Part shown: piece after piece, positions 8,903-21,141 of the stretch
Position numbering within the stretch: the first letter of the stretch is position 1
Layout: every line of letters starts with the position of its first letter
Source of the DNA: Pseudobdellovibrionaceae bacterium
Lineage (GTDB): Bacteria > Bdellovibrionota > Bdellovibrionia > Bdellovibrionales > Bdellovibrionaceae
Reading direction: 5' to 3'
DNA: 64,000 nucleotides
Assembly: GCA_016785955.1 (NCBI GenBank)
Contig: JAEUWH010000032.1
Coordinates: 1 to 64,000, forward strand
Program-made: the position numbers and the translations under genes
Notes under the pieces: generated by a model
What the model saw: only the letters and a program-made list of their open reading frames with translations
What the model was told of the DNA's origin: nothing
Database searches by the model: none

Positions 8903-9796
8903 TTATTTGAAAATGTTTTTTTCTTCCAGTTCTTGAACTAGCCCCTGGAAGCCGACTTTTGCGATCAGGGTCTTAATTTTTTCAATTCTTAAATGGATTT
9001 GTTGCGGCCAATTAATATCTTGTTTGAACTTCTTTTCTTGTTCTTGTGTGAGGCCACCAGAGTGTTCTTTTAGTGTGTGCAGGACCCACTCGGCTTGGAT
9101 CAGTGCGCGGACAAATACAGACGTGAATTCTACAACTTGTTTTTTGGTTTCCTTGTCAAGAGCCATTCTCTGCATTAAGGTGACGCCCATTCCATGATGC
9201 AGAACCTCGTCTTTTAAAATGGCGGCGAAGGTATTCTTTAGATGTTCATTCTGGCATGACTCTTTAAGGTTTCCATAGTGGAATAAACCAAAACCTTCCA
9301 AAACGACTTGAATGGTAAAAATAATAGAACTTTTGCCGCCCTCATTCAGACACAGATCTAAAGCTCGTAACATGGGGTGAAAATCAATATTTGGTATCAC
9401 GTCACTTTGCAGAAAACGTTCAAGACTCATGCGGTGTTTGACTTCATCCGAACTAAAAAGAGCATACAAAGATTTTTCCTCGGTGCTTTCGGCACCTAAC
9501 ACCATTTTGGCTCCATAATTCAAACCAAATTTTTCAATATAGTAAGACAGGGACAGGCTTTTATGATTCAAAGATTTTAAGATATCTTGTTGAATACTGG
9601 GGGGAAGTGCTTTGAAATAGTGAGAATGATCTAATTTATAGTGCTCAGCATTCCAATAAATTTCGTCTGTGTGAAAAAGTTTTTCCTGTTTAATTTCGGC
9701 TGATTTATGCATGATTAAAGATAAAGGATCAGTCGACGCCAGATTGGGGGCAAGCATGCTGTTAGGGATGTGTTCAAAGTTCATATCCATCTCCAT
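8903..9796 (-). CDS. Ferritin-like diiron oxygenase-type protein
   Basis: The 297-residue, mostly helical protein carries two carboxylate-histidine motifs of ferritin-like diiron enzymes. DEVKHR (E-x-x-H) follows an upstream Glu helix (GAESTEEKSLYALF), and KDEVLHHG (E-x-x-H-H) follows VLEGFGLFHY. This pattern suits an oxygen-activating oxidase of the AurF or desaturase-like type rather than an iron-storage ferritin. Substrate is unknown. The gene overlaps the hexapeptide-repeat gene by 23 bases and is followed by psd after 7 bases. Several in-frame ATGs occur at the beginning (9796, 9790, 9784) close to AAAGGAA, so the true start may be up to four codons later. Confidence 0.75.
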   Translation of the reverse strand: MEMDMNFEHIPNSMLAPNLASTDPLSLIMHKSAEIKQEKLFHTDEIYWNAEHYKLDHSHYFKALPPSIQQDILKSLNHKSLSLSYYIEKFGLNYGAKMVLGAESTEEKSLYALFSSDEVKHRMSLERFLQSDVIPNIDFHPMLRALDLCLNEGGKSSIIFTIQVVLEGFGLFHYGNLKESCQNEHLKNTFAAILKDEVLHHGMGVTLMQRMALDKETKKQVVEFTSVFVRALIQAEWVLHTLKEHSGGLTQEQEKKFKQDINWPQQIHLRIEKIKTLIAKVGFQGLVQELEEKNIFK

Positions 9797-10427
9797 TTCC
9801 TTTCAAGTAACGACCTTTCATAATTTTAGAATAGGTCGGGATCAGTTCTTGATCTTTGATTTTAGCTCCTGGACCTATGTGAGCATGGGCTCCTAAAAGA
9901 ACTTTTTCACCCATGGTGATTGAATCATAAAGTAGCACTAATTTTCCTTGTTTACGGACAATCAAATGGCAGCTTAAAATTGTACCTTCACCTAGAAAAC
10001 TATAGCTTCCAATATGAAGCCCTGTTCTGTCTAGGATGCGAACATTCGGTGTCCAAACGACGGACTTACCAATATGACTTCCCCAGCAACGCAGCCATAA
10101 ACTAAAAAGACCAGGAATCAGAATCAGAATTTTTTCCAGCGACGAAAATGTTAAAAAAAGATATTGCAGGCGATGGGCTACCATCCAAGAACTGCCATCC
10201 CGAGCCAATATCCCGATGGGGCTTAAGCCTTTATGTAAAGGGTACTTGCCGTGAAGCAGGCGCCACAGAATCAGGGGCACAAGATACGTAGAGAAAATAA
10301 TGATCCCTACAGATGTTAGGCTGATATTTTTAAGAAAATACAGACCACTACCGGCAACTAACAGCAAATGAAAGAAGGGAAAGTAGAAAAAAATTTTTTC
10401 TAAGGGTTTCGGCATGCCTTTTGTCAT
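9774..10427 (-). CDS. Membrane-anchored hexapeptide-repeat (left-handed beta-helix) transferase-like protein
   Basis: The first half is hydrophobic (FFYFPFFHLLLVAGSGLYFL and VGIIIFSTYLVPLILWRLL), indicating membrane insertion. The second half shows hexapeptide-like steps (HIGKSVVWTPNVRILDRTG, LHIGSYSFLGEGTIL, ITMGEKVLLGAHAHIGPGA) typical of left-handed beta-helix acyltransferases. It may transfer an acyl or similar group to the product of the neighbouring synthase, but this is inference. The start overlaps the upstream FeeM-like gene as ATGA and the 3' end overlaps the diiron gene, so translation is tightly coupled. Confidence 0.7.
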   Translation of the reverse strand: MTKGMPKPLEKIFFYFPFFHLLLVAGSGLYFLKNISLTSVGIIIFSTYLVPLILWRLLHGKYPLHKGLSPIGILARDGSSWMVAHRLQYLFLTFSSLEKILILIPGLFSLWLRCWGSHIGKSVVWTPNVRILDRTGLHIGSYSFLGEGTILSCHLIVRKQGKLVLLYDSITMGEKVLLGAHAHIGPGAKIKDQELIPTYSKIMKGRYLKGNGDGYEL

Positions 10428-11131
10428 AAGCGAAATTTATTTTTTAAACGTTTTAAAAGATAACTTTCATTTGATTGAAGGGCCGCTGTGTGAAGAAGAA
10501 TTTCTTCCATTTTAGCCGATAAGACATGATAAGAAAGTTTTCTTTTTTGATAGAAAAAAGCAAATTGATCTTTTAATCCAAATTTTTTGAAATAAGTGAT
10601 TCGAAATGGTCTGCAAATAGCAATAAAACCTTTGAACTGGAATTTCTCAAAGGCTTGTAGTCCGGTATAACACAGCAGATAGCGAGCCAGCAAAGCTGTG
10701 GTCACTTGATCTACATCGGGGTCGCTGACCAATCGGCCTAGTTCGGCATATTGATAAAATTGATTAAAATCAAACTCATGTAATTGGAAAGATTCAATTT
10801 CAAAGGGGCTCGGGGTGACGCGAAGGGAAAGCAAAATCTGTTTATTGATCTCTAGTGCATAGACAATGCTTCGGGAATCAATACTGACTTCGGAGGCTAT
10901 TTCATGCTCCTGGGTTAAATGCTTGGCTTTTTCTAAATAGTACTTGTAGCGATGCTGTCTGATCTTTTGATACACAGAGTTCTGTTCTTCAGAAATAATA
11001 GTGGAGTTTCTAAAATCAATTTCATGGCAGGTCACTAACGGGCTTAGCTCAGAAATACTATGTTTGGTAGTTATCACCGCTTTCGCTAAGGATAAATTTA
11101 AACTCTCTTGATCTATCTCGAGCATAGACAT
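10424..11131 (-). CDS. FeeM-like N-acyl amino acid synthase (GNAT fold)
   Basis: The protein of about 235 residues resembles the FeeM/acyl-homoserine-lactone-synthase-like branch of the GNAT fold, which joins an acyl chain from acyl-ACP to an amino acid. Supporting blocks are IRQHRYKYYLEKAKHL, SIVYALEINKQILLSLRVTPS, the family-typical ELGRLVSDPD, and KFQFKGFIAICRPF followed by a KFGL segment that fits the C-terminal acyl-binding part. AGGAG lies five bases upstream of the ATG at 11131; a GTG two codons earlier overlaps that motif and is unlikely. It is the first gene of a four-gene overlapping operon. An OlsB-like or exosortase-associated acyltransferase is an alternative reading. Confidence 0.72.
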   Translation of the reverse strand: MSMLEIDQESLNLSLAKAVITTKHSISELSPLVTCHEIDFRNSTIISEEQNSVYQKIRQHRYKYYLEKAKHLTQEHEIASEVSIDSRSIVYALEINKQILLSLRVTPSPFEIESFQLHEFDFNQFYQYAELGRLVSDPDVDQVTTALLARYLLCYTGLQAFEKFQFKGFIAICRPFRITYFKKFGLKDQFAFFYQKRKLSYHVLSAKMEEILLHTAALQSNESYLLKRLKNKFRL

Positions 11132-11234
11132 AGACACTCCTAATAAAGATCAAAAATTATATAAATAAAGGAAAGTTCTCAAGTATTTGAATTTTAATTG
11201 CAGTGATTACAAGTGTGTATACTTTTTGTTCAGG

Positions 11235-11891
11235 CTATAAATGAATATGATGCTTTATGCGAATAGAGTTCAAATTGGTATTCCAATTCTCTTCCCACGG
11301 ATAGGCCAGTAAAGAGAGTGAATTTTTACCCATAGTCCATCCGTGGGTGATTTTATCAAATAAAACAGGTAAATCCTTTGGTCTTTTTAGAAGGAAATGA
11401 ATAATCGCCAGTCCTACGATTAAAGCCGAAAGGGGGGATTTCAATTGAGCGTAATAAAATGCAATCAAACCGGCTTCACCTTCTTGTGACGTATCAAATC
11501 CTGTCACTAAATGCCAAAGATCATGTGTTTGACGGATGCGATAAACAATATAATCCCGGTCACTTTTAATGGGGTCTTTGGTGTCTTTTTCATAGAAAGT
11601 AAAATCAAGGTTATTCGTTTTAATAAAATGATAATAAGCCCAACCCAAGCTATCCTCATGACACGTCGCTAGTTGTTCAAACTCTATTTTTTTTGTCCCT
11701 TGTTTTTGTTGAACCATTTCTGCAATTTCCTTGTTTCGCAGATAGCGCTGTGGATAATCACTGAGGCTCTGTTGAGACAGCAATTGATTTCCAAGTTTTA
11801 AGACGGAATCAACCTGGTTAGGATCTTTTAAATAACGGTAAACTGCAAAAAGCAATTTTACTTTAGTGTAAAGTTTGAACATACTTATCAT
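11235..11891 (-). CDS. Coq4-family protein
   Basis: The core RIRQTHDLWHLVTGFDTSQ contains the HDxxH metal motif of Coq4. It is followed by EGEAGLIAFYYAQLKSPLSAL and a C-terminal DKITHGWTMGKNSLSLLAYPWEENW block, all typical of the family. Eukaryotic Coq4 acts in coenzyme Q biosynthesis, in ring C1 modification. In bacteria many copies lie in biosynthetic clusters with unknown substrates. Here it lies 104 bases upstream of the FeeM-like operon in the same direction and diverges from the methyltransferase-like gene. This suggests a role in the same pathway rather than in respiratory quinone synthesis. Confidence 0.85.
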   Translation of the reverse strand: MISMFKLYTKVKLLFAVYRYLKDPNQVDSVLKLGNQLLSQQSLSDYPQRYLRNKEIAEMVQQKQGTKKIEFEQLATCHEDSLGWAYYHFIKTNNLDFTFYEKDTKDPIKSDRDYIVYRIRQTHDLWHLVTGFDTSQEGEAGLIAFYYAQLKSPLSALIVGLAIIHFLLKRPKDLPVLFDKITHGWTMGKNSLSLLAYPWEENWNTNLNSIRIKHHIHL

Positions 11892-11911
11892 GTTACTATG
11901 TTGTTATAATA

Positions 11912-12523
11912 ATGACTAGGGGAAAGAAAAGCGTGACTATAGATCTATCGATAATCCATCTGCTGGTTGTTTTACTTTTCTTATGTTATCTTTCTTTTTG
12001 GTATTCCAGTCTTAAAATTTTCAAAACGACTAAAGAGTTAAATCGAAAGCACCGTATTTTTTTTAAATTACTGACCATAGGACTTTGGAATTACAGCCTC
12101 ATCACATTGGCTTTTATGTCGCCTGATCTTTGGGGGCAAACAAGAATAAATTTGCAACTAAAGGAAATTTTTCTGATTTCTTTTATGCTTTTGATTTCTT
12201 TAAGTCTATTTTGGTATGCCAAACGCACCATTGAAAATGTTAAATTTGATGTCATTTTTAGTAAAAAGACTCCTGAGGTTATAGTGATGGAAGGTCCTTA
12301 TCGTCTTATACGCCATCCTTTTTATACATCTTATATCGTCACGTATCTGGGATTGATTCTGCTGAATTACAATTTTCTAGTGAGTCTTGTGGCTGGAGTC
12401 TTAGTTGTTGATTATGTCTTTGCCGCATTAAATGAAGAAAAAAAATTTCTTACGAGTTCTTTTTCCAAAGAATATAAATCTTATCAATCTAAGACTAAAA
12501 TGTTTTTTCCATTTATATTCTAA
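11912..12523 (+). CDS. Isoprenylcysteine carboxyl/phospholipid methyltransferase-like membrane protein
   Basis: The 203-residue protein has about five hydrophobic helices and the conserved C-terminal motif EGPYRLIRHPFYTSYIVTYLG with a later EEKKFLTSSFSKEYKSYQ. These are shared by ICMT, PEMT and NnrU-like methyltransferases that use S-adenosylmethionine at the membrane. Substrate cannot be read from sequence. It diverges from the Coq4-like gene with only about 20 bases between the annotated starts. A GTG at 11933 preceded by AGGGG is a possible true start and would leave more room for promoters. Confidence 0.8.
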   Translation: MTRGKKSVTIDLSIIHLLVVLLFLCYLSFWYSSLKIFKTTKELNRKHRIFFKLLTIGLWNYSLITLAFMSPDLWGQTRINLQLKEIFLISFMLLISLSLFWYAKRTIENVKFDVIFSKKTPEVIVMEGPYRLIRHPFYTSYIVTYLGLILLNYNFLVSLVAGVLVVDYVFAALNEEKKFLTSSFSKEYKSYQSKTKMFFPFIF

Positions 12524-12643
12524 GTGGATTATTTAAACGATTACTAAAATCGGTTTGACTGTTTGACTGTGGGCCATGTGAGGGCCATGTGATCAGTCGG
12601 TCGGTCTCTGGATACTCACAGGTCGCTAGAGGCAGGAAAATAA

Positions 12644-13489
12644 TTACAGAGTAAAGCTGGCAAGCCTGACTAGTTCGCGGCCCGCTTTGTTGGCTAGGAC
12701 ATCTTTTCGGTAAGCGACAAAAATTTTATCCTCGAAAATGGGGAGCCTGGCATCGTAAGGAACAAGATCCGCACCGTCAGCTTTGGCCACTCGCTCGGGA
12801 AGAATTCCCACGCCTTGGCCCGCTAAAGTTAGAGTTCTGATCAGCTCCAAACTGTTGCTGTTGACCAGTTGCCAGTCCTGAAATTCTTTAGAATGAGTCT
12901 TTCCTAAGATACTTTGAATTTGCATCAAACTGGAATCAGCAAAAATCTTTTTAGGAACATTCACAGTGTCTTTTGCTCGCCAAAAAAGAACTCGGTCGTC
13001 GCCCATTTTCTTTAAAACTAAATCGGGATGACGTACTGGATTTACAACAAACCCTAAATCTAAATCGTACGACACGACACGTTCCGTGATCTTTCTAGAA
13101 AAATCATGAACTAAACTAATATCAATTCCGGGTGCGTCTTTGTGTAGACTTTCCAGAAATCGTGGCAAGGTGTAGGCGCCGACGCTTTGGTGGCAACCGA
13201 TTTTAAAGTGGCCTTGGATATTATCCATCGACTGATCTAAATCATGGTGAAGATCATTCCATGATTCTAATAACCCATGAGCTTTTTTATAGAACAATGT
13301 CCCTTGCTCGGTTGCAATCACGCCTTGTTTTGTTCGATGGAATAATTTTACATTCAGTTTTTCTTCTAAACGCTGTAGGCTTAATGTCAAAGTCGGTTGT
13401 GTGACGCCAAGTCGGATAGCGGACTTAGAAACATGTCGTGTTTGGTAGACCTCAATAAAATATTCGATTTCAGTTGGTGTTGCTAACAT
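12644..13489 (-). CDS. LysR-family transcriptional regulator
   Basis: An N-terminal winged helix-turn-helix (EYFIEVYQTRHVSKSAIRLG, VTQPTLTLSLQRLEEKLNVKLFHR) is followed by a substrate-binding domain of the periplasmic-binding-protein fold, total 281 residues. LysR regulators usually respond to a pathway-related small molecule and control a neighbouring or divergent operon. In Pseudomonas aeruginosa the LysR protein PtxR controls the pvc isonitrile genes. This gene lies 84 bases downstream of the isonitrile cluster on the same strand and is a natural candidate for the equivalent role, which is inference from position. Confidence 0.92.
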   Translation of the reverse strand: MLATPTEIEYFIEVYQTRHVSKSAIRLGVTQPTLTLSLQRLEEKLNVKLFHRTKQGVIATEQGTLFYKKAHGLLESWNDLHHDLDQSMDNIQGHFKIGCHQSVGAYTLPRFLESLHKDAPGIDISLVHDFSRKITERVVSYDLDLGFVVNPVRHPDLVLKKMGDDRVLFWRAKDTVNVPKKIFADSSLMQIQSILGKTHSKEFQDWQLVNSNSLELIRTLTLAGQGVGILPERVAKADGADLVPYDARLPIFEDKIFVAYRKDVLANKAGRELVRLASFTL

Positions 13490-13573
13490 CTGGATACGCT
13501 ACCACACGATATTTAGTTTTGGAAATGGATGTCGAATTAACATTACCTGCCAAACAGTGACCTTCTGTTGCCG

Positions 13574-14998
13574 CTACAAAATTGAATTAATTTCGTCTAA
13601 TGATGTTAGGGATTCAATATAAGAGTCTGGTCGGACTAAAATCGCTTGGTTTTTGTAAACCGAACTGTCTGTCCATATTTTGCTACGGGCATTAGAGCCA
13701 ATGCGTATGACATTCGCAAAGCTTGCTAAATGTAAGTTCACGTCAGTATCGCTAAACAGGATCAATGTAAATCGTGAATAGTTAAGTAACGAGTATAACC
13801 GTGTTTTGTTAGATCCTTGGAAAACCTCGAGGTCAAACAATCTAGAACCACGAGGTCCTTGCTGTCCATAACGAATGCCCATTCCAGTTATATTTCCCGA
13901 ACGTTTCTGAACAATACTGACGTAGTCTTGAGCATGAGTTCCTGTCTTTGAAAATTTTGTAGAACGTACAAGTTCGCCCGAAGATTCGATTACTCCTTGG
14001 GCTACGGGTTTACGTTCGCCTTCATAGGTGTGCAGTAGTTCTGTCGGAGCCCCTGTTTTTAAAACCATACCCAGTTTCCACATCAAATTGAATGCGTCTG
14101 CGAGTCCCGTATTTAAACCTTGTCCTCCATTTACGGAATGAATATGGCATGCATCGCCAGCAAGAAAGACACGGTCATTTACGAAAAATTTTTCAGCGAT
14201 GGATTCCTTAACTGAAAACTGAGAAAACCACACGATCTCTTTAAATTTTAATGAATGAGGTTTCATGGCGCGATTGATTTTGGCAAGTGCATCTTCAAAC
14301 GTAAAGTCTTTGGTGTCCATTCTAACGTAAAATCGATCTATATTGCCTTCTCTTGGAATCCAGGCAACATCGGATGTTTCAGCTTGGAAGACAATGATTT
14401 CGGGAACCTTATCAAAGTCTGTTTCGATAGTGCCGTCAATAACGGCCCACACGATTTGTGGCCGTACGATTTCAAATGGTACCTTAAACAAATTGCGAAC
14501 AAATGATCGCGAGCCATCGGCTCCGATGACATAACTTGATTGAATTTTTTCGCCATCAGATAAAGTGGTTAGGCATCCTGCGCTGTTGATTTCAATATTT
14601 TCAACAGCAGTTGAGCGCTTAACCGGCGATGTCGTTTCGCTTAGCTTTCTATCTAGCAGTTTTTCTATATACGATTGCCCAATCATCAGAAAATGTTTGT
14701 GCAGGCAGCCCTCAAGACTGTCCCACCAAGCAGATTGACGGGAAACAAATTTTCCATCAGCCCATACTGAACTCGTGTTACATGGTTTTCCCAAAGGATA
14801 CAGTTCTTCAAATAGACCGGCGACTTCTAATAATTGCAATGTTCGCGCATTCAATGCATCGGCTCGGCCGACTTCGAGTGGTTTGTCAGACTTATCCACC
14901 ACCAGCGTGTTTAATCCACATTTTTGCCCTAGGTACGCACTCATTAAACCGACGGGACCTGCGCCAACGATAACGACGTCAACAGTTTGAACGCTCAT
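13574..14998 (-). CDS. FAD-dependent aromatic hydroxylase (PheA/TfdB/MhpA-like)
   Basis: A Rossmann GxGxxG motif (DVVIVGAGPVGLMSAYLG) binds the FAD ADP moiety, the DG motif appears as YVIGADGSRSFVRN, and the GD motif as VFLAGDACHIHSVNGGQGLN. Together these define the class A flavoprotein monooxygenases that hydroxylate phenols at the expense of NAD(P)H. The C-terminal part (KTRLYSLLNYSRFTLILFSD) resembles the thioredoxin-like tail of this group. Length is 474 residues, slightly short for the family. The ATG overlaps the stop of the PvcB-like gene by four bases, so it is likely to act on the cluster's aromatic intermediate, for instance turning a phenol into a catechol. Confidence 0.88.
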   Translation of the reverse strand: MSVQTVDVVIVGAGPVGLMSAYLGQKCGLNTLVVDKSDKPLEVGRADALNARTLQLLEVAGLFEELYPLGKPCNTSSVWADGKFVSRQSAWWDSLEGCLHKHFLMIGQSYIEKLLDRKLSETTSPVKRSTAVENIEINSAGCLTTLSDGEKIQSSYVIGADGSRSFVRNLFKVPFEIVRPQIVWAVIDGTIETDFDKVPEIIVFQAETSDVAWIPREGNIDRFYVRMDTKDFTFEDALAKINRAMKPHSLKFKEIVWFSQFSVKESIAEKFFVNDRVFLAGDACHIHSVNGGQGLNTGLADAFNLMWKLGMVLKTGAPTELLHTYEGERKPVAQGVIESSGELVRSTKFSKTGTHAQDYVSIVQKRSGNITGMGIRYGQQGPRGSRLFDLEVFQGSNKTRLYSLLNYSRFTLILFSDTDVNLHLASFANVIRIGSNARSKIWTDSSVYKNQAILVRPDSYIESLTSLDEINSIL

Positions 14999-15831
14999 TT
15001 ATGACTCACTAGTCGTGGGTTATCGAGGGGAGGATTGCTTAATACATGCACGCGTCTTAGATGGCGAGGCGCTTTGGTTTCAAAAGCTTCTCGGCCATGC
15101 AGCAAAGAGAAATTGTCTGCAACGACTAAATCACCCTCTTGCCATTCATGTGCATAGAAATTTTCTGGGGCGTATAAGGCGGCCCGCAATGTAGTATGAA
15201 GCTTTTGAATATCATCATGGCTAACGCCTGTAAATTCTAAGGTTGGTGGGTTTACAAAGTTTCCAAACCCCTCACGTGGTGGCTCGTTATAACGAATGAC
15301 AAAATGACCGCGTAAGGGATGGGTATCAATCACTGGTGACACCGTAGTGCTATCGTAGAATTCCATTTTCCGTTGATATTTGCCCGTGACTTTATTCCAT
15401 AAACTTTTCACATCGGCTGACGCACGATCCAAGGCTAGGGATGTATTCGAAAACGTTGTGCGACCCCCTTGACCTGCTTTTGGAGCCTTTACGCAGTGAA
15501 ACAGCTGAAATTCGGGAATTTGTGGGCGATACATTCCATCCCAATGGAGCGGTACGTAGTTATTGTCAAAAATGTGATCCTCGGGATTGTTCCGTTCGAC
15601 TAGCTCAAGAACTTTGCCAAACGGCCAAATACTGATTTCACCCCATCGTTCGCAGTAGTGGGCAAAATCATCAGCACCAATAAATGTACGAAATCCTCGG
15701 AGAACAAGTAAGCGCTCACTCCAAACAAGATCACGAAGCATTTTTATGTCAATATCACGGATGTCATCGTTGGATCCGTGTGCTTCAACGATGACACCAA
15801 AAGGTTTATTCGGTTTGATATTAGGTTTCAT
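14995..15831 (-). CDS. TauD/PvcB-like Fe(II)/2-oxoglutarate-dependent oxygenase
   Basis: The 278-residue protein carries the facial triad as YVPLHWDGMYRP (H-x-D) and a distal His in SLLHGREAFETK, with RRVHVLS supplying the 2-oxoglutarate-binding Arg. It belongs to the TauD clan and, by its neighbour, to the PvcB/IsnB type that acts on an amino-acid isonitrile by desaturation with or without loss of the carboxylate. The gene overlaps the isonitrile synthase by 11 bases and the monooxygenase by 4, so the three are one translational unit. Which PvcB outcome applies here cannot be decided by eye. Confidence 0.88.
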   Translation of the reverse strand: MKPNIKPNKPFGVIVEAHGSNDDIRDIDIKMLRDLVWSERLLVLRGFRTFIGADDFAHYCERWGEISIWPFGKVLELVERNNPEDHIFDNNYVPLHWDGMYRPQIPEFQLFHCVKAPKAGQGGRTTFSNTSLALDRASADVKSLWNKVTGKYQRKMEFYDSTTVSPVIDTHPLRGHFVIRYNEPPREGFGNFVNPPTLEFTGVSHDDIQKLHTTLRAALYAPENFYAHEWQEGDLVVADNFSLLHGREAFETKAPRHLRRVHVLSNPPLDNPRLVSHK

Positions 15832-16897
15832 TGGTTATCCCTGTTAACTTGAGATGTTCTTCTTTATTCATTAGAACATAGTGGCTAGGGCGACCAAATC
15901 GAGTCACCAAGTGGGCTCCTAAGGCTTCGGCTTGCGCGCGTTTCAATAGCAGGTAGCGGCCGTCCACCTGCACGGCGACTCCATGCCATGGTGTGGCCCA
16001 GTTATCTGGCTCGATCAAACGAATTCCTAATTTCTTTGCGCCACAACTTTGCGGATGAATAGATAGGCGAACGGCATCTGGAAATTGACGTTCCACGAGC
16101 TCTCCCCATGCTTTACTTCGCTGAATAACAGCATAAGCGCGGATACGACTTTCTTTCTGAATGCTTGATCGGCTTTGAGTCTGACCTGGATACAGAGAAT
16201 CCTCGACGAGGAATCGTGTAATACCAAGATACAAACGATGCGCCTCTTGATCGTCGATGGAACTATCTTTTGATTTTCCTCTGAGCACAGAGGCTTTGAG
16301 TGATTCAATAGATTCGCCGAATGTTTCCATCAGCTGTGCGCGCATATCGTTAAAATTTTTACCATGGTACAGCTCTTCTAGGTTAAACGTTGAAATTGAG
16401 TTCAAGCCCAACGAGCCAATCATGTCAGAAATTTCGTTTTGGTAGTTGGTGACGTCATCTTCGCGCATACCCACGATATCGCTAAACACGCGTCCATCGG
16501 AGGCCAAAACAATACGACCTCCGGGAGCATAGTACTGTTTAATTCGATCGCAAAGATACTGAAGAAACTCTAAAGCGCATCGTTCCGCCATGTCAGGTAA
16601 AGGACCTAAAACTTTGGCAGGATTAGGTGATTTTCCCGGAAATGCCGGTAAAACAAATGTTACGGGTTCAGCCTTAGTTATCGCCGATATGATCTTAGAT
16701 AGATGAGGCAAGGAGCATTCTTCACATGTGGTAATATCGCAGGCGTGTTGGGGATTAGCTGTGCGTCTGAATTGCATCACATCGAGTAGGATCTTCTTGG
16801 CAATAGCCGTGATGGAAGACGGACTCGAATGTGGTCCTAATTTCAAGTAGTCAAAGTTATCAACTGAGTTGCTTAGTGAAGCTTCTGCTAATGTCAT
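15821..16897 (-). CDS. PvcA/DIT1-family isonitrile synthase
   Basis: The enzyme would convert the amino group of tyrosine or tryptophan to an isonitrile using ribulose 5-phosphate. Family blocks are clear: FVLPAFPGKSPNPAKVLGPL followed by PDMAERCALEFLQ, then IVLASDGRVFSDIVGMRED, and at the C-terminus RLSIHPQSCGAKKLGIRLI and TPWHGVAV. The start is the ATG at 16897, preceded by a strong purine-rich AGGGGGTGG; a longer frame to 16981 adds a non-conserved stretch. Length is about 358 residues, normal for PvcA/IsnA. It is the first gene of the isonitrile operon and diverges from the DOPA dioxygenase-like gene. Substrate choice is open. Confidence 0.92.
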   Translation of the reverse strand: MTLAEASLSNSVDNFDYLKLGPHSSPSSITAIAKKILLDVMQFRRTANPQHACDITTCEECSLPHLSKIISAITKAEPVTFVLPAFPGKSPNPAKVLGPLPDMAERCALEFLQYLCDRIKQYYAPGGRIVLASDGRVFSDIVGMREDDVTNYQNEISDMIGSLGLNSISTFNLEELYHGKNFNDMRAQLMETFGESIESLKASVLRGKSKDSSIDDQEAHRLYLGITRFLVEDSLYPGQTQSRSSIQKESRIRAYAVIQRSKAWGELVERQFPDAVRLSIHPQSCGAKKLGIRLIEPDNWATPWHGVAVQVDGRYLLLKRAQAEALGAHLVTRFGRPSHYVLMNKEEHLKLTGITNET

Positions 16898-16939
16898 GAT
16901 GCCCACCCCCTTTATCTGCCTAGATGTACACATAATATA

Positions 16940-16965
16940 ATCATAAATAAAATAGGAATTATGAT
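16940..16965. promoter_or_regulatory. Inverted repeat, candidate LysR operator
   Basis: ATCATAA at 16940-16946 and TTATGAT at 16959-16965 form a perfect seven-base inverted repeat with a twelve-base spacer. It sits in the very AT-rich region between the divergent isonitrile synthase and DOPA dioxygenase-like genes. LysR regulators bind such interrupted dyads. The site could control both directions, but no protein-binding evidence exists. Confidence 0.4.
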
Positions 16966-17057
16966 AAAATATTATAAACAAAATTTATTATTGGCTTAAG
17001 GCTATGATGTATATTAATTTATACTATTTGATCTATGATTGGAAAAACGGTAACGTT

Positions 17058-17423
17058 ATGAATATGAAGTACTTTCATATTCATGTCTACTTTGAAGAAA
17101 AAGACATAAACCATGCCTATGTCTTGCTAGATAAAGCCACAGCTATAGGCTTATTTGAGGTCGTTCGTTTTCAGGAAAAACCAGTAGGGCCACACCCCAC
17201 CGCAATGGTCGAGATGCATTTCAAGGAATCCTGCTATAGCCAGGTGTTAGAGTGGATAAAAATTAATCGTGGGACGTTAACGGCCATGATTCATCAGGAC
17301 ACCGGCGATGATTTTAAAGATCATACAGATAATATTCAGTGGCTCGGAGAAAAGCGGCCATTGGATTTTTCTTTCTTCGAGCTAATTTTGAAAAGACCGG
17401 AATTAAGGATAAATCCAGAGTAA
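17058..17423 (+). CDS. DOPA 4,5-dioxygenase-family protein
   Basis: The 121-residue protein matches the small DOPA 4,5-dioxygenase family known from betalain-producing fungi and many bacteria. Its blocks are KYFHIHVYFEEKD, PVGPHPTAMVEMHF, NRGTLTAMIHQDTGDDFKDH and IQWLGEKRPLDFSFF, which supply the conserved histidines. These enzymes open catechol rings by extradiol cleavage. The start at 17058 places the conserved FHIHVYF at the N-terminus, as usual; ATGs at 17004 and 17007 near AAGG are alternatives. The gene diverges from the isonitrile operon, which has a hydroxylase able to provide a catechol, so a shared pathway is likely but unproven. Confidence 0.85.
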   Translation: MNMKYFHIHVYFEEKDINHAYVLLDKATAIGLFEVVRFQEKPVGPHPTAMVEMHFKESCYSQVLEWIKINRGTLTAMIHQDTGDDFKDHTDNIQWLGEKRPLDFSFFELILKRPELRINPE

Positions 17424-17459
17424 GTATGAAATTATTTTCAACTATTGAGTTAAGAATCA

Positions 17460-17508
17460 GGGCCTGTCCTCATTTTCTCGCGACGGCTAGGCAAGTGAGA
17501 ACAGGCCC
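17460..17508. repeat. Interspersed long palindrome, copy A
   Basis: GGGCCTGT at 17460 and ACAGGCCC at 17501 begin an imperfect stem of about 16 pairs around the loop core CTCGCGACGGCTAGGC. Near-identical copies occur at 32094 and 62693 and a half copy at 21327. This copy lies 37 bases after the DOPA dioxygenase-like gene. Confidence 0.8.
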
Positions 17509-17595
17509 CAGTCATCTCGAGAGGAAAATGTAGATCGGCATCTTGAGTGCCGTCATCTTTGGTGAAACTAGCTAGACTTAGATCTTTGTTTGAGA

Positions 17596-17623
17596 GATTT
17601 GGACTTAAGTTTAAGTCCAAATC
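17596..17623 (+). terminator. Perfect 13-bp palindrome followed by T-tract
   Basis: GATTTGGACTTAA (17596-17608) and TTAAGTCCAAATC (17611-17623) are perfectly complementary with a two-base centre, followed shortly by six T at 17629-17634. This fits a Rho-independent terminator for transcription arriving from the DOPA dioxygenase-like gene. A protein-binding operator ahead of the next gene is an alternative. Confidence 0.55.
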
Positions 17624-17652
17624 TTCCGTTTTTTGGGGACGGGGGCAACGAT

Positions 17653-19536
17653 ATGATCCAAAAAAAAAATTTAAGCTGGCGAGATGTTTTGTCCTGTGTC
17701 TGTGTTCGTAAGCGGACGGGCTTGTTGTTGGTGTGGTTTATTTCCGTGGGATGCACACAGAATTTACCGTATTTACAAAGTGAGATTCTTAGGTCGCCGA
17801 CGATGGTGTTCGCAGGCGAACAAAAAGCATCCAAGACTAAGAACGTGACGCTAAAGCCGGCCAAGGATAGTAGCACTCCTCTTTACGGTAATCCCTATAT
17901 GGGCTGGGTTCTAGAGTATAATACCATCGAAGGACTTCCGTACTTGAATAATCATCAATGTCGAGACATGGGAGTTAATGGTAAGTTTTATCCCGAGTTT
18001 GATGTGATCGAAATTTTGAGTTCGTGGGGAGATATTGAAAGGCAGGAAGGCGTTTTAGATTGGAGTCGTCTTGATGCGGCTGTTGAGTTGTGGTCTGGCA
18101 AGGGCAAGAAAATTCGTTTAAGAGTATCTAATGATGACTTGGGACCATACTTTAACTCTGTACCTAGGGATCGCTTAGGATCTCCTGATTGGCTCTATAC
18201 AAAGTACGGCGTTGATAAACAAATTAAGAACTATGATGGTGCTAGCAATTGGCATTTTCCAAATATTGGTCATCCGACCTACCAAGTTAAATTGAAAACG
18301 TTTTTAACAGAACTGGCGAATAAGTATAAAACTCATCCGGCCGTAGAAGCGGTGTCTATCCGGGGGTATGGAGCCTGGGGAGAGTGGCACGATGGGTATT
18401 CATTTCGCAATCAGGATGAAAAGGCTTCGGTGCTTCGGCAAATGATTGGGCTATGGACACAAGCATGGGCCGGGGGACCTCAGATTTTGAGTTTGCCTGT
18501 GTCTATTGATTGTGAAGGAGCTGATTGGAACAGTCCAGAATGCAGTCGTCGAAAAAATGACGACTATGCCGGTTTCAAATATCGTATGGGGTATGATCAA
18601 GCTTTAGATACTCCTATGTTAACTTTTAATAAAGATTGTGTCGGTGCGTGTACGGCGGCGAATGAGTATAGTCTTATGGACGAGTCTTTCCGTAGTAAAA
18701 AACTTCCTCTTATTGGCGAGTTCGGTGGCTTTTACAAGGACTATAAAAACAACAGCAATGGTCGCAATTTTAATTTTGCTAAACAAGATGTTCTGAAACA
18801 AAAACTAAACTATATTACGGCTCTTGGCTGGAGCTGTGACTTGCATGATGCTGATGACTTTTATTCAGAGCAAAAAACTTTGATTAACTCGGTCATGATG
18901 CAGTTGGGGTATCGTCTTTCGGTGAGTCAGGTTGTTCTTCCTGAATTTCTAACGCCGGGAAATCGTTTTACGATGAATCATTCATGGAAAAATGAAGGTG
19001 TCGGTCGATTTTATGGAAATGTTAATTTGAAAGTTTATTTAGTCAATCAAAGTGGCGTTACAGTTTGGGAAGGCACCGAAATGTCTTTGGATCTTTCAGA
19101 TTCTTTGAAGGGCAGTCCAGATCTGGAAAAGTCGTCCCAATTTCTTTTGCCAGGCGAAATTCCCGCGGGAAGTTATCAATTGAAGTTAGCTGTTGTGGAA
19201 GCTCGAGCGGGTTCGAATCAAATCAAACTCGCAATGAAAGATCGGGATGTTGAGGGGCGATATCTGTTGGGAACGGTCGCTGTCAAGTCTGTAGGGTCAG
19301 GAGGAAATACATACTTTTGGTCATTGGGCAGTTATTCCAGTTGTTCAAAAGCCTGTGGTGGAGGGACTCAAAGTCGATCGGTTGTTTGTCAAAACATCAA
19401 CGGACAATCGGCCAAGGAAAGTCTTTGCCCGGCCCCCAAACCAGAAGCGCTGCAATCCTGTAATACGCAATCCTGCGGAGGCAGTAAGCTGAACTCGGCT
19501 CTTTCGGTTATTATTAACAGCTATTTACAAAACTAA
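17653..19536 (+). CDS. DUF4832-like exported protein with C-terminal thrombospondin type-1 repeat
   Basis: After a hydrophobic signal ending in a lipobox-like SVGC, the protein has a long alpha/beta-barrel-like domain of the DUF4832 type. Blocks with possible acidic catalytic residues are VSIRGYGAWGEWHDGYSF and LPLIGEFGGFYKDY. A beta-sandwich-like region follows, then a C-terminal thrombospondin type-1 repeat (WSLGSYSSCSKACGGGTQSR, with a SVVCQN segment and final CNTQSC) with its six cysteines. The barrel suggests carbohydrate binding or hydrolysis, and TSP1 repeats mediate adhesion in animals. Here both are inferred. I start at the ATG at 17653, because an upstream TTG would put the 17596 palindrome inside the gene. 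Confidence 0.75.
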   Translation: MIQKKNLSWRDVLSCVCVRKRTGLLLVWFISVGCTQNLPYLQSEILRSPTMVFAGEQKASKTKNVTLKPAKDSSTPLYGNPYMGWVLEYNTIEGLPYLNNHQCRDMGVNGKFYPEFDVIEILSSWGDIERQEGVLDWSRLDAAVELWSGKGKKIRLRVSNDDLGPYFNSVPRDRLGSPDWLYTKYGVDKQIKNYDGASNWHFPNIGHPTYQVKLKTFLTELANKYKTHPAVEAVSIRGYGAWGEWHDGYSFRNQDEKASVLRQMIGLWTQAWAGGPQILSLPVSIDCEGADWNSPECSRRKNDDYAGFKYRMGYDQALDTPMLTFNKDCVGACTAANEYSLMDESFRSKKLPLIGEFGGFYKDYKNNSNGRNFNFAKQDVLKQKLNYITALGWSCDLHDADDFYSEQKTLINSVMMQLGYRLSVSQVVLPEFLTPGNRFTMNHSWKNEGVGRFYGNVNLKVYLVNQSGVTVWEGTEMSLDLSDSLKGSPDLEKSSQFLLPGEIPAGSYQLKLAVVEARAGSNQIKLAMKDRDVEGRYLLGTVAVKSVGSGGNTYFWSLGSYSSCSKACGGGTQSRSVVCQNINGQSAKESLCPAPKPEALQSCNTQSCGGSKLNSALSVIINSYLQN

Positions 19537-19565
19537 ATTTAGGAAGCAAAAAAAAGGAGAATTTT

Positions 19566-19904
19566 ATGAAAAAAATCAGTGTCTTGATCATCGCGATGAG
19601 CATCACCATGTTGATCAGCCCTTGGGCCCAAGCAGACTGTTGGGGATCTGTGGCCTACTTGACAAAAAAATCTAATGGCAGCATCGACTTTGGAATTTTT
19701 CCTAAAGATAGCTCGTCATGCAATTGCAATACTGTATCGAGCGGTGCCATCGGAAATGGCTCTCGGCAAATTTCGATTCCTGAAGCAAATGCCAATGTTA
19801 AAGAAGCCTATGCAAGCTTGCTAGCCGCAATGACCACGAACACAAAGATTTATGTTTTTACTTCTGGATGCGTCGGGACCGAGGTCATGTCATACGCTCA
19901 GTAA
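19566..19904 (+). CDS. Small secreted hypothetical protein
   Basis: The 112-residue product has a clear signal peptide (KKISVLIIAMSITMLISPWAQA, cleaved before DCWG) and four cysteines in the mature part (DCWG, SSCNCNT, SGCVG). An AAAGGAG ribosome binding site precedes the ATG. The gene follows the DUF4832/TSP1 protein by 29 bases and is probably cotranscribed. I do not recognise the family. Confidence 0.65.
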   Translation: MKKISVLIIAMSITMLISPWAQADCWGSVAYLTKKSNGSIDFGIFPKDSSSCNCNTVSSGAIGNGSRQISIPEANANVKEAYASLLAAMTTNTKIYVFTSGCVGTEVMSYAQ

Positions 19905-20163
19905 AAAAGAATGTCGATGGCCCCTTTGTGTTAAAGAACTTATTGGGTTTTCTTTGTTTCACTCGAAATCATAAAGAATCTCAGGCATGAACATTGAGGG
20001 GCATAGGTGTCATTAATCTAGACAGAACAAGACTAGGTTCTACTTAGATGTAGGCACTTCGACGGGCCGCCAACGAACGCCATATCCGTGTTTTTAGTTG
20101 CTTATAATGCTATTTGAGTTGTGGCTATGATTTTGGCTTTCGGGTTGCAGGCTATGTCTATAT

Positions 20164-21141
20164 ATGAAAATCAAATATTATGCCCTTTCAGTCATTTTAG
20201 CCGGTTTATCGACTGTTTCAGCGGAAACCCCAAAAAACAATTGCAAGGTCTTCTATTTTAAAAATCCAGTCGCTTGGATTGCCAAGTCAAATCTTAGTCT
20301 AAACGAGCTGATCGCGGCTCAAGGGCCTTTTTCTGTTTTACCAGCACATGGAATTACCTCACGACAAATAAACACCCTAGTGGAAAAATATGGTGTCCGC
20401 AGGCAAATGGAATCCCCTCGGCAAGTCGTCGATCCCATCGTTTTAGCAAAATCTATCAATGTATTTCTTAGGTCACACACAGAGCTGAATGCTGAGCAAA
20501 TTAATTCGGTTGAAACCATTTCTTCGGGCAAAGTCATTTCTGACGCAGAACTTTCTCGAATTTGGGCCACACCCACAAGCATGAAATCGCTTGTATTTGG
20601 TTTAACAAATTGGTTATTCCAAAAACCACAAACTGTTCAAAGAGATTTTCGTTTAAAAATCAGGAGTACTTTTTGGCAGTCTATTCATGAGACAACAAAC
20701 GATAAGTCAGGAATTTCTAAAGCTGATATAGAAGGTATTCTAGACTATTATGCCCGCCATTTAACATTAGCGGATGCGCCATTAACGAATGATTTTGCTG
20801 TGAAAGTTATTAGCTTAAACAGAGGTGCAGACTATCAACGCTCCCAATTTGTAATAGGCGGAACGCCTTTATATTCCAGCCTTCATCCCGAATTTTTTAC
20901 TAACGCCGAATTCGTTGCCACTCTTGCCGGTGCTCTTTTCGTAAAAGGCACGCCATTGGGTGAGCTAGCAGCTAAAGAATATTTGCGATATTTGTATTTT
21001 GCTGAACGAGGCACTTTGACAAAAACAGAATCAGATCTTTTCGATCTTCTTCGCAACAATTATCCCAATGTTCGATCTGTTATTAAAACATTTGATCGCC
21101 AACCAGGTAAAACAATTGGACATCAAGATATTATTCTGTAG
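20164..21141 (+). CDS. Exported hypothetical protein
   Basis: The protein of 325 residues begins with a signal peptide (KIKYYALSVILAGLSTVSAE) and is otherwise a soluble, mixed alpha/beta sequence with no recognised motif. Segments such as SFLRSHTELNAEQINSVETI-like helices dominate the first half. No strong ribosome binding site is visible. The 259 bases upstream hold no gene. Function unknown. Confidence 0.6.
   Translation: MKIKYYALSVILAGLSTVSAETPKNNCKVFYFKNPVAWIAKSNLSLNELIAAQGPFSVLPAHGITSRQINTLVEKYGVRRQMESPRQVVDPIVLAKSINVFLRSHTELNAEQINSVETISSGKVISDAELSRIWATPTSMKSLVFGLTNWLFQKPQTVQRDFRLKIRSTFWQSIHETTNDKSGISKADIEGILDYYARHLTLADAPLTNDFAVKVISLNRGADYQRSQFVIGGTPLYSSLHPEFFTNAEFVATLAGALFVKGTPLGELAAKEYLRYLYFAERGTLTKTESDLFDLLRNNYPNVRSVIKTFDRQPGKTIGHQDIIL

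Follow-up and report, generated by a model that had tools for sequence, protein, structure and literature searches.

A candidate LysR-controlled isonitrile locus occupies positions 12644-17423 of a 64,000-nucleotide stretch (hereafter the window) of contig JAEUWH010000032.1 from a Pseudobdellovibrionaceae bacterium with a 4.34-Mb genome. Five open reading frames (ORFs) fill this region and encode a LysR-type regulator, a class A flavin adenine dinucleotide (FAD) monooxygenase, an Fe(II)/2-oxoglutarate (Fe/2OG) oxygenase of the IsnB/PvcB type, a PvcA-family isonitrile synthase and, divergently, a long-form member of the 3,4-dihydroxyphenylalanine (DOPA) 4,5-dioxygenase family PF08883. Recurring linkage in distant genomes, a common LysR and a common operator argue that the PF08883 gene truly belongs to the isonitrile cluster, as an initial annotation of the window had proposed, and the isonitrile operon and the dioxygenase gene are predicted to form one LysR regulon. 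We give an even chance to a complete LysR-controlled pathway, in which an isonitrile would be converted to a vinyl phenol and then to a catechol that undergoes extradiol cleavage.

Organization of the five-gene locus

The ORF products were assigned by Pfam, NCBIfam and PDB searches, and all five score far over the family cut-offs (LysR, FAD_binding_3, TauD, DIT1_PvcA and DOPA_dioxygen), which confirms the five genes that the initial annotation had placed here. The pvcA and pvcB-like genes overlap by 11 base pairs (bp) and the pvcB-like and FAD genes by 4 bp, and the three are therefore read as a single minus-strand operon, with a gap of 84 bp between the FAD gene and lysR. The PF08883 gene and pvcA are transcribed away from each other across an intergenic region of ~166 bp, counted from the start at 17064. 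This start (MKYFH), not 17004, is probably the correct one because its Met is conserved in relatives (MKYFH/MRHFH), which do not share the 20 codons with which the longer ORF begins. PvcA and PF08883 are each encoded by a single copy in the genome. Third-position excess indicates purifying selection on all five genes, with synonymous divergence saturated. DNA folding revealed no unusual structure in the divergent pvcA/PF08883 region, and promoter and terminator scans at the locus were near chance.

The conserved PvcA-PvcB-FAD operon

The core of the locus recurs in the phylum. Of 369 genomes of the phylum, 29 carry the FAD family NF005531 and 43 carry PvcA; 27 genomes have both (Fisher p=1e-27), and the PvcA, PvcB and FAD genes are contiguous in at least 23 genomes. 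Burkholderia stagnalis (plas1 780876-784083) carries these three genes in identical order, and its FAD and PvcA proteins are 68% and 56% identical to those of the window; in contrast to the window, the flanks read there contain no PF08883 gene, and the sole PF08883 match lies ~2 Mb off and is 31% identical. A PvcA-PvcB fusion in B. stagnalis (639-amino-acid ORF) was considered and dropped, as the PvcA match lies in another frame. PvcA-PvcB-FAD is one conserved, widespread operon with the FAD enzyme as its normal third gene, and as an isonitrile cluster the core is of a kind already known. The isonitrile operon with a FAD hydroxylase-type gene described in the initial annotation is supported.

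The FAD protein scores above the NF005531 equivalog cut-off (898 versus 530 bits), although this equivalog has no known function, and its nearest PDB structures are VibO and phenol hydroxylase. No match to the HpaB-family PvcC hydroxylase (PF03241) was found in the whole window genome, and the FAD protein is therefore the candidate ring hydroxylase that would yield a catechol.

The cluster has been lost repeatedly, as judged from two decayed copies. In G003 (relatives are coded G for genomes, C for contigs and L for comparison loci), which belongs to the same genus, the FAD gene is intact, PvcB and LysR are reduced to 201 and 175 amino acids, and pvcA is gone (L110, G003:C4, 7035-9662). In the congener G001, only a pvcA fragment is left (L048, G001:C69, 7089-7412), adjoining genes known from the flanks of the G005 cluster. 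Other carriers have different genes in place of the dioxygenase. An ATP-grasp ligase gene directly follows the FAD gene in G029, G058, G353 and G339, whose pvc operons belong to different families, and in G273 and G368 the gene in this position encodes a SnoaL-like protein, homologues of which adjoin the operon in G053, G218 and G088. These substitutions suggest that a single isonitrile core is elaborated into a set of related products, with the ATP-grasp ligase as a further tailoring branch. Isonitrile clusters of a second class, PvcA-PvcB-P450-glycosyltransferase, are present in the family (L112 6437-10519 and L113 6667-10773; G193 and G206), and their PvcB residues at the selectivity positions are H/A.

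The first two enzymes and the Pseudomonas comparison

With 293 bits against a cut-off of 600 for NF045653 (L-tyrosine isonitrile synthase PvcA), the window PvcA is, by score, a relative outside this strict Pseudomonas-type equivalog, and tyrosine is therefore its presumed substrate. PvcB homologues divide into a vinyl-isonitrile type with K/R107 and N/H188 and an isocyanoacrylate type with L107 and C188 (PMC9467999). The window PvcB-like protein retains an intact HxD...H triad (H101, D103 and H250) and has R107 and N188 (PIsnB numbering); homologues of the operon type carry R/N in nearly all cases, and a few combine R with C or S. Because R and N occupy the selectivity positions, the enzyme is predicted to resemble the vinyl-isonitrile (rhabduscin) enzyme rather than the paerucumarin PvcB.

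The initial annotation had modelled the locus on the Pseudomonas pvc genes. In the P. aeruginosa pvcABCD-ptxR system (paerucumarin), PvcA likewise goes together with a PvcB homologue, a hydroxylase of aromatic rings and a regulator of the LysR type (PtxR), of which the adjoining LysR gene of the window is a possible counterpart, whereas the window differs in its PvcB marker residues, in its candidate hydroxylase (class A FAD_binding_3, not HpaB-type PvcC/PvcD) and in its extra ring-cleavage-type gene. The analogy is wrong or goes too far: the PvcB-like enzyme has the vinyl-isonitrile residues of IsnB and the FAD enzyme is a class A flavoprotein unrelated to PvcC. The interpretation given in the initial annotation thus stands for the operon and for PF08883 membership, and not for the Pseudomonas model. 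A paerucumarin-type pathway through an isocyanoacrylate to a coumarin, run with different hydroxylases, is very improbable: the adjoining LysR gene and a slightly better PDB match of the PvcB-like protein to 3eat (2e-86) than to 7tcl (7e-74) are in its favor, but R107 and N188 stand in place of L and C and the genome lacks an HpaB-family PvcC. The Pseudomonas-type pathway itself was rejected on the PvcB residues and the absence of HpaB from the genome.

The closer counterpart is the IsnA-IsnB system of Xenorhabdus and Photorhabdus (rhabduscin/byelyankacin). There, as in the window, a PvcA-family synthase precedes an Fe/2OG enzyme with K/R107 and N188, and for the window pair the predicted product is again 4-(2-isocyanovinyl)phenol. 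Unlike this system, the window has an operon FAD monooxygenase and a co-regulated PF08883 dioxygenase and has no glycosyltransferase gene in the cluster or in the flanking stretch covered by the scan (8903-21141).

Linkage of the long-form PF08883 gene to the operon

The window PF08883 protein scores 95 bits against a family cut-off of 25, with intact HxH, GPHP, H and DH motifs. It shares its family and conserved histidines with PDB entries 2nyh and 2peb and with GdDODA, a bacterial PF08883 relative that has been compared with 2NYH and cleaves L-DOPA at the 4,5 and 2,3 positions (PMC6426604). Apart from the ordinary members, 2nyh and 2peb included, 11 long-form proteins, among them that of the window, form a separate clade (100/100) characterized by a GPHPxxMxE motif and a C-terminal FFELIxxRPELRI extension.

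The initial annotation had proposed a search for PvcA homologues with nearby DOPA-dioxygenase genes, and co-occurrence in other genomes was indeed observed. Long-form PF08883 accompanies PvcA in seven of its 11 genomes, compared with 43/369 overall (p=4e-5), and in 6/9 versus 22/182 at the genus level (p=1e-4), and it is associated with the FAD gene (p=2e-6), all p values coming from tests in which the tree is not modelled. Ordinary PF08883 genes exhibit no PvcA association (11/76 genomes). The PF08883 gene adjoins the operon in three genomes of two families (the window genome, G005 and G338). The G005 layout is the same as that of the window, and in G338, from another family, FAD-PvcB-PvcA is divergent from PF08883-LysR. 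In G059, PF08883 is paired with a 69%-identical LysR gene on C1, and pvcA-pvcB-FAD lies on C31. In G339, from the genus of G338, lysR and pvcA are immediate neighbors and the PF08883 gene is absent from the space between them; that gene was therefore gained or lost at exactly that place. A chance neighborhood was rejected because the linkage recurs in distant genomes and the operator is shared.

A LigB-family (PF02900) ring-opening dioxygenase gene is convergent with lysR in G005 (L039 3845-4774). It was rejected as a second ring-cleavage gene of the cluster because it is common (41/60 relatives) and lies on another contig in the window genome.

LysR and a shared candidate operator

Full-length LysR orthologues with 69-81% identity are located beside the cluster in G005, G002, G029, G338 and G339; in G059, the orthologue adjoins the PF08883 gene without the operon. 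LysR is thus a candidate regulator of both transcription units. A palindrome with the core ATAGGTN5MCTAT is common to the divergent regions of the window, G005 and G338 and to the PF08883 promoter of G059. In a leave-one-out analysis, an operator matrix from any three loci ranked the fourth locus first on its own contig (4/4), and the window site at 16987-17008 is the best match in 64 kb for the matrix trained on the three relatives. Since the motif was derived by inspecting those four regions, loci outside the derivation provide a stronger test. In G193, the operator precedes lysR and again pvcA, which accounts for two of the three sites in that genome; in G143, where the PF08883 gene and pvcA lie on separate contigs, it is found ~50 nucleotides before the PF08883 gene. 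G005 and G059 each contain the exact core once in the whole genome, at the PF08883 locus. Co-regulation of the isonitrile operon and the PF08883 gene is a well supported prediction because the operator precedes the PF08883 gene in four genomes plus a fifth (G143) outside the derivation. LysR would be the protein that binds this operator.

A second element, CCTATTWTATTTATGA, precedes pvcA in most relatives, and its sole exact match in the window genome is at 16941-16956. With a matrix built from six relatives and the window left out, this pvcA promoter element is the top hit in the 64 kb, at 20.8 bits compared with 15.6.

Predicted pathway and alternative functions of the dioxygenase

The proposed pathway draws on the gene content, operon, co-occurrence, shared operator and active-site residues, which are read directly from the DNA. 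PvcA would convert L-tyrosine and ribulose-5-phosphate into tyrosine isonitrile, and the IsnB-type oxygenase would desaturate it with loss of CO2 to 4-(2-isocyanovinyl)phenol; both steps are modelled on characterized homologues. The FAD monooxygenase would then hydroxylate the ring to a catechol, and the long-form PF08883 enzyme, encoded by the divergent gene under the same regulator, would perform extradiol cleavage of the catechol ring. The substrates of these last two enzymes are putative. The product would be an isocyanovinyl muconic-semialdehyde-type compound, possibly recyclizing.

Several observations weigh against this pathway. Free isonitriles can poison non-haem iron enzymes. The chemistry is predicted from sequence, and the substrate assigned to the long-form PF08883 clade is a presumption. 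Long-form PF08883 is absent from 22 of the 29 FAD-gene genomes, and ring cleavage therefore cannot be needed for the core product; with most operon carriers devoid of the dioxygenase, the PF08883 step would be accessory. Conversely, four long-form genomes (G210, G310, G311 and G320) lack PvcA. The window operator copy is degenerate, with two mismatches to the core, and two-mismatch matches are not rare in shuffled sequence. The residue markers predict PvcB selectivity loosely, and single swaps left the product unchanged (PMC9467999).

The main rival, of first rank and in our estimate rather unlikely, is disposal of the catechol isonitrile by the dioxygenase. As an off-switch or self-protection enzyme, PF08883 would be induced when LysR senses (excess) catechol isonitrile and would degrade it, and the exported product would be the catechol or phenol isonitrile. 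The absence of the PF08883 gene from most operon carriers, its position in a separate divergent unit outside the operon in the three linked genomes and the placement of lysR directly after it in G338 and G059 are consistent with such a function, and LysR regulators commonly respond to aromatic intermediates. The sequence alone, however, fits degradation and biosynthesis alike.

It is improbable that the PF08883 enzyme acts on another catechol, such as L-DOPA from the environment or a precursor of melanin, and that regulation alone ties it to a phenoloxidase-inhibiting isonitrile, the two jointly countering melanization or catechol stress. Phenoloxidase is a target of rhabduscin-type isonitriles (PMC6386379), L-DOPA is a substrate of a PF08883 relative (PMC6426604) and the four genomes named above have long-form genes without PvcA; however, the operon's own FAD monooxygenase is a possible catechol source in the same cell, and the long-form clade is distinct from ordinary PF08883 and is the sole one enriched with pvc.

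Table 1. Features of the isonitrile locus and tailoring genes in related operons
Feature	Position	Strand	Evidence or remark
LysR-type regulator, 281 amino acids	12644..13489	-	Pfam HTH_1 (PF00126) 4e-17, LysR_substrate (PF03466) 2e-21
Class A FAD monooxygenase, 474 amino acids	13574..14998	-	FAD_binding_3 (PF01494) 2e-65; NF005531/PRK07190 898 bits
IsnB/PvcB-like Fe(II)/2-oxoglutarate oxygenase, 278 amino acids	14995..15831	-	TauD (PF02668) 3e-49; PDB 3eat 2e-86, IsnB 7tcl 7e-74
PvcA/IsnA-like isonitrile synthase, 358 amino acids, ATG at 16897	15821..16897	-	DIT1_PvcA (PF05141) 8e-75; PDB 3e59 2e-74, 9dhm 6e-74
Conserved pvcA promoter element CCTATTTTATTTATGA	16941..16956	-	~45 nucleotides before pvcA
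Palindromic operator candidate ATCATAGCCTTAAGCCAATAAT	16987..17008	.	Degenerate copy of ATAGGTN5MCTAT; between pvcA and PF08883 gene
Long-form PF08883 (DOPA 4,5-dioxygenase family) protein, ~119 amino acids	17064..17423 (longest ORF from 17004)	+	PF08883 4e-27; PDB 2nyh 1e-17
ATP-grasp ligase genes after FAD	L041 9527-10756; L045 4170-5396; L125 4639-5895		
SnoaL-like genes after FAD	L122 4330-4998; L127 3893-4525		

Two neighboring regions of the window were also recorded. The gene at 17590-19536 combines a DUF4832/glycosidase-like part with a thrombospondin type 1 domain (TSP1_ADAMTS 2e-13), which is unusual in a bacterium. A Coq4-family protein (PF05019, 3e-22) is encoded at 11235-11891, adjoining a block of unannotated genes (8903-11137).

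Implications for isonitrile biology

In open-licence full texts, no published description was found of an isonitrile pathway paired with PF08883, an extradiol dioxygenase or a flavin monooxygenase. We consider it possible, at somewhat below even chance, that vinyl isonitrile formation, catechol formation and extradiol ring opening together define a new class of non-aromatic conjugated isonitriles, made by a LysR regulon that is conserved in more than one family of the phylum. A role in predation or signalling would be speculative and draws solely on general isonitrile biology, which includes iron chelation (PMC5109203) and phenoloxidase inhibition (PMC6386379). Isonitriles are metal ligands and enzyme inhibitors for which few biosynthetic routes are known. 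If true, the pairing of an isonitrile with a ring-cleaving dioxygenase would contribute either a tailoring reaction new to this chemistry or a catabolic control specific to it. The pairing also suggests what the uncharacterized PF08883 clade and the NF005531 flavoproteins may act on, and with a defined operator the regulon can be put to a direct test.

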